Part shown: piece after piece, positions 20,370 through 34,091 of the stretch | How positions within the stretch are numbered: position 1 is the stretch's first letter | Layout of the letters: every line of letters begins with the position of its first letter | Program-made: the position numbers and the translations under genes | Notes under the pieces: generated by a model | What the model saw: only the letters and a program-made list of their open reading frames with translations | Databases searched by the model: none | What the model was told of the DNA's origin: nothing | Assembly: GCA_950295325.1 (NCBI GenBank) | Contig: OX485806.1 | Coordinates: 40,858,001-40,922,000 of the forward strand | Length of the DNA stretch: 64,000 nucleotides | Origin: Polytrichum commune | Taxonomy: Eukaryota > Streptophyta > Polytrichopsida > Polytrichales > Polytrichaceae | Direction of reading: 5' to 3'

Positions 20370-23300
20370 ATGGGGGGTGCGTGCTCTCGGAAGCGGGAGC
20401 AGACAGAGCAAGAAACAGACGATGCAAATAGAGGTCGTTCGGGAAGGTTAAGTCGGAGCATCAGTTTGCGATGGCCTGTGAAGCCAACACTGGCTATAGA
20501 GGCCCCTGTGTCTGTGAAACAGGGGCCAAGGTCTCCTCCAAGCCTTTTGGATATGTGTGTCCGTGAGGTTGCCCAGGTATAAACATCTACTCTGAGGGGC
20601 ACTTTACACTGGAGCTTGAGGGTCCATGACCATTGAAAGAAAGATGACTCGGATGTGCCACCTGTGTGAAGTATGGTGTTGGTTCTTCAAGTTGGTTTAA
20701 ATCTATGTGTAATCCCCAACTGGGCATCATGAGATTACTGCCTCCTTTCCAAGGTCAATGCCTCGACTTGGTGCGGATAAGCCAGCCTGTACCTCTTCCC
20801 CCCAATGGGCAAGCCCTGAGGTTCCCACATGATTTGGTTGAAAATATTCGGTTCATCAGGATATCCCCACTATGAATGAGTGGACCATAGGTGGTAGGGT
20901 GCACCAAATCAAGTGCTAGGAAGGTCACCCATCTGAGTACTATTCTGGCTTAGACAGCTTAACCTCGGCTTGAGTTGAAGGCCTTGGGTTAAGCCAACCC
21001 TTCCGTGGCCACTGAAATCTAAAATCTCTCATTGGTGGAAAATGCCAAGGGCGTCCCACTTCATTTTACACTTGAACTTGAGGGCCTAATGGGCCAAGGG
21101 AGTTCAAATGGATGAGCAAATCTGCATGGACTCCAAACTGGAGTGCAATAGATAATTGTCCACTTCAAAATCTCATGACCCTTGATTGAATATTATTTAC
21201 TATTGTGGAGACAGGCCCACATGAATAGGATGGTAGTGGAGTAGCATTCGATTGAGACTAGCCCAGTTGCGTATGTATTCACACTACAATTAAAGGCCCG
21301 TGACCACACGAAACCCAATTTTATTTTCTACGATACAGCCTTTGGACAAGTTTCAAGGGCCCTCACAATTTTATGGTCCCAGCCCTTGGCCATAGTGTAA
21401 AGTGGCCCTGACTGCGCATGCCCTTAAAATATCTGGAAATGAATGTGCAAAGGTTGATGCCTGGCAGAGTAGCTTGTGTGCTTGTATATCCATGGTTTTC
21501 GTTGAACTGCACGATGTCCCATCACCTTAGCAGTTGACATGGCATTGTGATGTGCATGGATGCAGAATGTTGGGAAGTTCAAATCATTTGCTAGAATTCC
21601 ACGTGATTTGACTCAAAAAATTCTAAATGAACTTACACGGTTGCAACTGCTGACACCCTCCATCCTGGAGAAATTCTCAAACTGCGCACTGCAGGTTTGT
21701 CACATTCTATCACAATAGTTGTTTTTTCATTATCATGTGTACTGGAGAGTATTTTTAATTTTAATTTTTTTCTTTTAATTTTTAGCATCATAGATCAGTA
21801 TCTGGTGGGGCCATGTGCAAGTAATTCTCTTGGATGCTCTAAGTATTGTTTATTTGTAATTTCCTCATGTTGAGTTATTCTCTAACTCAACATGACTTTT
21901 GGTTGGATTTGGTTGTTTGGCATACAATACCTTCCATGTTTGGTTAGTTTTTGGTGCATGCTTGAAGGTTGGTGTGGAGGTTTGAGCGAAGAACATTGAG
22001 GGTCAAACTCATCTTGGCATGCCAAGAGGTGCTAAATTGAGTTTGGCCCTCAATGAACCGGGATAGGTTGCTCTTCATTCAAATTCAAACACTGCCTCTG
22101 AGCATGCACCGCAAGTGGAAAGAAATTGTTGTTTTCGTTTGCAAAGCAACCAATTGAAGATTAGAGGGACCAACTCCCAAGGAGAAGTCTCATTGAGTTA
22201 ACGAGTTGAGTTGTAGAGGTCAATGTTAGAAATGTAAAATTGACCTTAGTATTTCACAAAGTTTGTACAGTAGTTCTAGTATTCAAATTCGCTATTAGTA
22301 GTGTCAGTCAGGAATGTCTGGTTGAGGGGTGTGATGATATTATATTGTGTTTCCTCACAGGATATTATACTCCCTGATAATCCTTTGGTGGAAGATTCCT
22401 GGATGGAGGTTATTGGCAGTCAAGGGGAGTCTCTTTTATCATTGGATGTTTCCAGCTCCACAATTACTGATGCAGGGCTTACATTTCTTGAGACATGCAC
22501 CAACTTGGAGACCTTAGCCTTGAATTTTTGCGACCACATTTCCGATGTGGGCCTTACGAGTTTATCAGGTATCACATCCATCCACTGGAACAGTCAATTT
22601 ATAGTTATCTAGTAATGTGAATTCAAGATTCCGCTTCTTACTACCTCTTTACGAATTTCATTTCTTTTGGTACTGGAAATGATGTGTACTGTCTCTTCAA
22701 TGACAAAAACTATTCGTCATTGTCACTGGCACTTCAAATTCTCTTTATTTATATTTCCTTCAAATTCCTGCTATTCACCTGTGACATTCAAGGATTTTTT
22801 AATTCTATCAGCTTCCTTATGTACTTGGAATTTTACATAGTAATAGTTCAATCGTTAGTGAGGAAGGGTTGTTGCTTACATTTTGTGTGTTGTGCCTCAT
22901 GGGCTTAGTATCTTACAAGCCTTGAACTTGTTTACAATGGTTGAAATATGCTATATTGCTATGATTTTTGTAGATTTGGTTGGAGAAGAGCTTATCGATA
23001 TATTGTTACTGAGTTATGGTGACATGCCAATTATATTGCAATGCAGGATTCGCAAACCTTACAACACTCAGCCTTCGTAGTAGTAACTTGATCACGGCAG
23101 TTGGAATGCGGCATTTCGCTAACCTCATCAATCTGAAGAACCTTGATCTTGAGCGGTGCCCTTACATCCATGGTGGCCTAATCTATCTCAAAGGTGTGAC
23201 AATTTTTATATATCTCCTATATCTCCAAATTTATTATTTTGACCAAATGTCCAGTTGCGCTTTTACAGGTTGAACTTCAACAACATCATGGGATGTTTTT

Positions 23301-33184: not shown

Positions 33185-34091
33185 CTACTGTCCGAGGTCT
33201 GCTTTCTTCTTTGCCCACAACCTGTCCAAAGCGCTGTCGGCATCTCCCTGCATACATCAAGTTCAAAACAAAAATCAGTTTCCGTGAATCTACATCTCTA
33301 CACACCAAGGGTGGCTTAAACCCAAGGCCTCAACCTCGATCCCAAGGGAACTTAAACCCGAAGTTCAGCCCTTAATTAAGGCCGCAATAATACTCGGATG
33401 GGTGACATTCCTAGCACTTAGTTTCCGGTGCACTCTACCGCCTGTGGTGAACCGGATATTTTCGACCAACCATGTGGGAACTTGCCGTTAGGGAAATTAG
33501 TGAAAACAGGTGCGGGCCGGCTTGTCATCGCCGGCCGTTTAAGATGTTCGCCTTTGAAAGGAGGCAGTAGTATTCAGGGCCCACTAATTCTCGTAATGCC
33601 CATTTCAGGATTTGATTCGGGATTACATGAAGAGACTTGCACCAACTTGATGGAGGAGAAACACCATAATTCATAATTCACGCCGGTGGCAGCATCAAAG
33701 TCATCTCCTCAACAAAAAGAAACGAAGCGAGAAAAAAAAGAAAACCTCGAAACCCTCACCTGAGCTCGGACGAACCCACACAAGGCGAAGGTCGTGAATT
33801 GGCCGGTGTAGACACCATTCTCGTCGAGGTGGCCGACATTCAACTGAACCGACGCATGGTCCTTGGAGGTGATCAACCTGTTGGTTGATGAACTGCACGC
33901 ACAGAAACGACCGGAAATTTTAAGAAAAAAAACCAGAATTAGGGTTCCCTAAGGTTCCAGTTTCCTGCATGTCGATCGTCCGCTAGGGTGCTGAGAAAAT
34001 GATGCCGCGAGATTCAATGGAAGGAATAAAAGCGCACTTACCACTTCCTGGGGATGTAAAGATCAACGTTGTCTCCCTCCTCGTTCTGCAT
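33185..34091 (-). CDS. RPS21: 40S ribosomal protein S21 (eS21), 3 exons
   Basis: On the minus strand the exons are 34091-34042, 33892-33760 and 33247-33185, with GT-AG introns. The join encodes 81 residues starting [17 protein letters not shown], followed by [33 protein letters not shown] and [15 protein letters not shown]. This matches eukaryotic eS21 across its full length; plant members have about 82 residues. It is a component of the small cytosolic ribosomal subunit. Exon 1 ends within the Cys17 codon. Intron 2 (33248-33759) is mostly one copy of the 5S-rRNA-derived repeat in the opposite orientation to the gene. A telo-box lies about 95 nt upstream of the ATG, typical of plant ribosomal-protein promoters. 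No disabling change is seen, so this looks like a functional copy. Confidence 0.95.
33307..33710 (+). mobile_element. 5S-rRNA-derived repeat, copy E (RPS21 intron 2)
   Basis: The head is CTCGATCCCAAGGGAACTTA, then CTCGGATGGGTGAC (33397-33407). The most complete body follows, with GGTGCACTCTACCGCCTGTG, ACCATGTGGGAACTTGCC, GGTGCGGGCCGGCTTGTC and CGCCGGTGGCAGCATC. It fills about 80% of the intron, antisense to RPS21. Confidence 0.78.

Follow-up and report, generated by a model that had tools for sequence, protein, structure and literature searches.

Five dispersed repeats within the window (the whole 64-kb stretch of DNA analysed here) raise the question of what kind of element carries sequence resembling 5S rRNA at one of its ends. 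They had been suggested to represent either a plant 5S-derived SINE or an unusual relative of Cassandra, and the evidence favours the SINE option. Probably all five are old insertions of a single family of 5S-headed (SINE3-type) SINEs in the nuclear genome of a land plant.

The original prediction placed the five copies between 20637 and 33710, and an nhmmer profile search recovered all five near those positions (Table 1), with E values from 1e-107 to 2.9e-81. The next match in the 64-kb window had an E value of 0.27, and no sixth copy was detected there. As the profile was built from the same five copies, these matches reflect the coherence of the family and not an independent discovery. All ten copy pairs align locally at 70-81% identity; their scores are 134.5-247, compared with maxima of 25-36 in 50 shuffles per pair, and identities of this order suggest that the family is old. 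When the copies are aligned together with their flanks, a 5' end common to A, C, D and E and a 3' end common to A, B, D and E become apparent; the family is about 350-400 bp long. With C and B taken as one, there are four insertions, and their flanks of 250 bp are unrelated, with 12 of 12 comparisons inside the range of 200 shuffles; the closest flank pair is A versus C+B on the 3' side, where 3 of the 200 shuffles reach the score. Copies C and B are fused head-to-tail with a few bases overlapping at the junction (27324-27328), where the tail of C runs into the truncated head of B. Copy B may have inserted next to C in 5'-truncated form; alternatively, a deletion may have produced the C-B pair. 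Pattern scans of viral and genome contigs and a distant BLAST search of copy E against plasmids returned no relatives; the sequences searched are viral, prokaryotic and plasmid ones, and the result has no bearing on plants.

Table 1. Copies of the 5S-headed family, the target duplications flanking copies A and D, and the gene carrying copy E (positions within the window).
Feature	Position	Strand	Support	Remarks
Copy A	20639..21001 (nhmmer envelope 20640-21004)	-	E 2.4e-95, 5S z 11.0	5S-like head, then body
Copy B	27059..27328 (envelope 27059-27330)	-	E 2.9e-81, 5S z 7.5	begins at model position 70, without the first ~70 of 382 positions
Copy C	27324..27688	-	E 1e-107, 5S z 14.8	best 5S match; spans model 2-360 of 382 and lacks the 3' end
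Copy D	28892..29242 (envelope 28890-29237)	+	E 7.2e-102, 5S z 9.2	head to tail, in LRR-gene intron
Copy E	33305..33710 (envelope 33305-33708)	+	E 6.9e-105, 5S z 8.3	in last eS21 intron, antisense to gene
5' target duplication of A, TTTCAGTGGCCACGGA	21002..21017	-	p 0.0033 (abutting), 0.022 (free search)	
3' target duplication of A, TTTCAATGGTCATGGA	20623..20638	-		3 transitions vs 5' repeat
5' target duplication of D, TGTGGGTGATA	28881..28891	+	p 0.0059 (abutting), 0.03 (free search)	
3' target duplication of D, TGTGGGTAATA	29243..29253	+		1 transition vs 5' repeat
eS21 gene	exons 34091-34042, 33892-33760, 33247-33185	-	splice signals	

The eS21 and ascorbate-oxidase-like genes of the window are in keeping with a plant host. 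The eight best Protein Data Bank matches of eS21 range from 6e-47 to 2.2e-39 (next 5.3e-26), and several of them are plant ribosomes. The multicopper oxidase gene has its best match in 1aoz, the ascorbate oxidase of zucchini (E 7.6e-108; next 2.6e-36); between exon-like stretches of the same gene lies a tandem array of ~79-80 bp x 4.4 copies (50479-50830). The claim that all copies are in introns was demonstrated for D and E, is likely for C and B, and is no more than a possibility for A. Copy E fills about 400 of the 512 nt of its intron (33248-33759), as expected of a discrete insertion, and copy D sits in an intron at 28108-29365, delimited by splice sites read from the sequence, after a Pfam-supported LRR exon. 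The C-B pair is bracketed by LRR exons that share one strand (ORF 22280-22609 and the exon from 27761) and is probably intronic, and copy A is located upstream of the first Pfam-supported LRR exon. Near the LRR gene there is also an inverted repeat (21994-22104 / 24074-24184) with 111-nt arms that are 83% complementary and ~2 kb apart. Other repeats of the window comprise a second dispersed family in both orientations (4934-5064, 26830-26960 and 35375-35505, with related stretches at 15456-15566 (inverted), 44180-44249 and 59706-59775) and locally repeated units at 16963-17813 with start spacings of 173-444 bp. A U6 snRNA match at 30973-31073 (-; 103.7 bits), the sole Rfam match of the whole window to E 1, has a shortened 5' stem and no plant-type upstream element by eye, and may therefore be a retropseudogene.

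The head of the family was compared with the 5S rRNA of Arabidopsis, human and yeast. When 300-bp tiles of both strands were scored against the Arabidopsis 5S, the 14 best all overlapped the copies, with scores of 32-62 and 29.5 as the best elsewhere. The absence of any significant alignment between head and 5S had been named as evidence against the original prediction; instead, none of 1000 dinucleotide shuffles of the Arabidopsis 5S reached the real score in any of the five copies (z 7.5-14.8). Human 5S scores below Arabidopsis 5S in 5/5 copies; for yeast 5S, the match is weak in A (z 4.1) and close to chance level in B-E. Judged by this similarity, the head is plant-type 5S sequence in all five copies. 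The predicted sharing of a 5S-like head holds for its core, as the significant match spans about nt 28-98 of 5S, but not for the outer ends: nt 1-28 show no match beyond chance in the four copies tested (p 0.47-0.89), nor do nt 97-120 in the three copies tested (p 0.08-0.98). Similarly, the GATCCCA..GGAACT stretch attributed to all copies is present in C, D and E, in GATCCCA-like form, but is missing from copy A. In those three copies the GATCCCA-like motif lies 32-33 nt from the first base of the element, compared with 31 in 5S, and the 5' end of the element falls about at the place expected of 5S nt 1.

Across four decayed copies, agreement with 5S in the promoter boxes is best for box C (14-16 of 19 sites), lower for box A (7-11 of 14-15) and poor for the intermediate element (2-4 of 6). 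The head is best explained as a diverged plant 5S rRNA gene that would have kept the internal type-1 Pol III promoter region, best in box C. The Rfam 5S model RF00001 gave no match (whole window to E 1; three sub-stretches to E 10), and the fold of the best head (C) is no better than that of shuffles (z 0.53). The head is 5S by sequence, not by retained structure. Three or all four of the four heads compared share the same departure from 5S at 35 columns (31 substitutions, 1 insertion and 3 gaps) and the 5S state at 56. These 35 shared differences point to a single progenitor that had diverged already, rather than to several 5S genes as independent sources.

Behind the head, no relative of the body was found in the searches made (including Rfam), and the 3' end is short and TCATCTTTCTT-like in the alignment. 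The copies show neither a poly-A tail nor a clear simple-repeat one, the 64-kb window yielded no partner LINE, and each of the five bodies contains TTTT, a possible early Pol III stop. Of the three copies that have both ends, two are directly flanked by imperfect target duplications, 16 bp long in A and 11 bp in D, and all four mismatches between these repeats are transitions. If an abutting repeat is required, random placements equal A in 0.33% and D in 0.59% of 20,000, for bounds that were shifted by 2-3 nt after the repeats had already been seen; with the profile bounds and a free search, A is equalled in 2.2% and D in 3% of 600 placements. No convincing duplication was found for copy E (p 0.17 in the abutting test; 0.49 in the free search) or for C, B and C+B (p 0.085-0.18, free search). 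Of the features proposed as marks of a SINE, variable-length duplications are supported in A and D but not in E, C, B or C+B, and no clear tail of the proposed kind is seen.

The strongest rival, in our view an improbable one, derives the copies from a TRIM of the Cassandra type, an LTR retrotransposon whose LTR carries a 5S promoter; they would be its solo LTRs or its decayed remnants. Cassandra makes 5-bp target duplications. Exact 5-bp end repeats are present in 0/3 copies tested, and no copy begins with TG (the starts are AGGG, AAGAG, CAAGGG and TAGTAG), so that neither the TG of the TG..CA ends nor the 5-bp duplications proposed as marks of Cassandra are in evidence. In favour of this rival, Cassandra is the element already known to carry 5S in angiosperms and ferns, with LTRs of about 200-400 bp (PMC10853983, in its available text), and by eye the 3' end of the family (..CATCAGAGTC.. 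in B) faintly resembles the Cassandra primer site. A relaxed Cassandra-style search for box A plus box C found only A and E among the five copies, plus four other places. The linked box A-box C-PBS query taken from the accessible part of PMC7215508 matched neither strand of the window, and the PBS TGGTATCAGAGC with ≤2 mismatches occurs at 16752 (+), 44286 (+) and 28698 (-), in no case within 10 kb downstream of a same-strand copy. There is no LTR-internal-LTR structure, as no two of the five matches are spaced as LTRs and C and B adjoin directly. The original observation that neither a primer-binding site nor a paired LTR is evident was borne out by the linked PBS query on both strands and by match spacing. 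A Cassandra solo LTR was rejected for want of a linked PBS, a TG start and a 5-bp duplication. Both Cassandra and this family are plant elements with a 5S-derived promoter, but Cassandra is described as having two LTRs with the 5S motif at their centre, a methionine-tRNA PBS and a PPT (PMC10853983 and PMC7215508, as far as available), whereas this family has no PBS, no paired LTR, longer duplications and a 5'-terminal 5S. The start near 5S nt 1 and the lack of a TG, of a paired LTR and of a Cassandra PBS ≤10 kb downstream favour a SINE, as does the lack of an exact 5-bp duplication where two of three two-ended copies carry long, unequal ones. The SINE reading falls short of proof because the copies are few (five, in one window), the tail is unassigned and one two-ended copy has no duplication.

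Very unlikely, in turn, is that the copies are 5S rDNA units or 5S pseudogenes dispersed through recombination or circular DNA, with the intergenic spacer of 5S as their body. The head plus ~250 bp does correspond to the size of a 5S rDNA unit, and C and B stand head to tail as in an rDNA array. Against this, the fixed ends with unrelated flanks and the target duplications at A and D speak against scattered rDNA, and a recent 5S gene or pseudogene is at odds with the missing match to covariance model RF00001. The 35 columns at which the heads agree against 5S argue for one diverged progenitor instead of true 5S genes, and on that ground a tandem rDNA unit was rejected. Another kind of non-autonomous element, a DNA transposon or one of unknown kind that captured a piece of 5S, would leave body and tail without recognised origin, as they are, and yet we give it very little weight. 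Terminal inverted repeats are absent (175 to 1000 of 1000 shuffles equal A, D and E), for which a DNA transposon was rejected; the unequal length of the duplications and the position of the 5S part at one end, with an offset about as in 5S, also count against this reading. A tRNA-derived head was dismissed since ARAGORN found no tRNA in the window.

The preferred reading, a 5S-headed SINE, can be compared with the SINE3 class, which the available portions of the literature report from vertebrates and some insects (PMC7245038), Lepidoptera (PMC3272025, PMC8010984) and Aspergillus (PMC5063351). Examples are zebrafish SINE3, AmnSINE1, Tribolium SINE3-1_TC, Helicoverpa HaSE3, Plutella PxSE4/PxSE5 and Aspergillus SINE3-1_AO/AfuSINE3. 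Like these, the family consists of a 5' 5S promoter region and an unrelated body, a few hundred bp in total (PxSE4/5 measure 389 bp and AfuSINE3 259-343 bp in the excerpts of PMC8010984 and PMC5063351). Unequal target duplications on part of the copies only are likewise found in the HaSE3 group, where duplications of 8 and 19 bp and a third copy with none are described (PMC3272025, available part). Retention of the promoter with divergence of the upstream part is reported for lepidopteran SINE3 and for Ajax (PMC10886601, available part), the latter a TRIM of nemerteans that resembles this family in keeping only the 5S promoter part but differs as an animal LTR retrotransposon with a PBS and 5-bp duplications. 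The tRNA-headed plant SINEs Au, p-SINE and TS are also short non-autonomous plant elements but have a head from tRNA; the 3' ends of Au and p-SINE are T-rich (PMC3747384, available part). In distinction to SINE3, this family has a plant host and plant-type 5S, which makes a birth independent of SINE3 probable, and it has no identified partner LINE here and a body without known relative in the searches made. By analogy with SINE3, Pol III would have transcribed the progenitor from the 5S head, starting at the first base of the element, and a LINE enzyme, on recognising the 3' end, would have inserted new copies through target-primed reverse transcription. The copies seen today appear dead.

The class itself is already known; as far as the literature was searched, the novelty lies in the host kingdom and in the probably independent birth. 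No plant 5S SINE was among the matches listed in the open-licence PubMed Central literature, a scope outside which Repbase, Dfam and SINEBase lie and may hold a plant SINE3. A 2010 paper mentions sequences homologous to 5S among SINE3, "including plants"; its plant reference, in the text available, is the Cassandra paper (PMC3095306). On the origin of Cassandra, Kojima 2024 restates an existing proposal in which a 5S-headed SINE landed in an LTR (PMC10886601, section 4.2), and Maiwald et al. 2024 instead suggest an association with 5S rDNA, citing new SINE promoters for animals (PMC10853983); in their accessible parts, neither names a plant 5S SINE. Perhaps, though we regard it as a long shot, there is a land-plant lineage of 5S-headed SINEs, born independently of animal and fungal SINE3, and the family described here is what remains of that lineage, which would have provided Cassandra with its Pol III promoter by inserting into an LTR. 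A plant 5S SINE as such would extend the range of SINE3 to land plants and would be the missing donor class for the 5S of Cassandra, and the two proposed origins of Cassandra would become testable by comparing the 5S parts.
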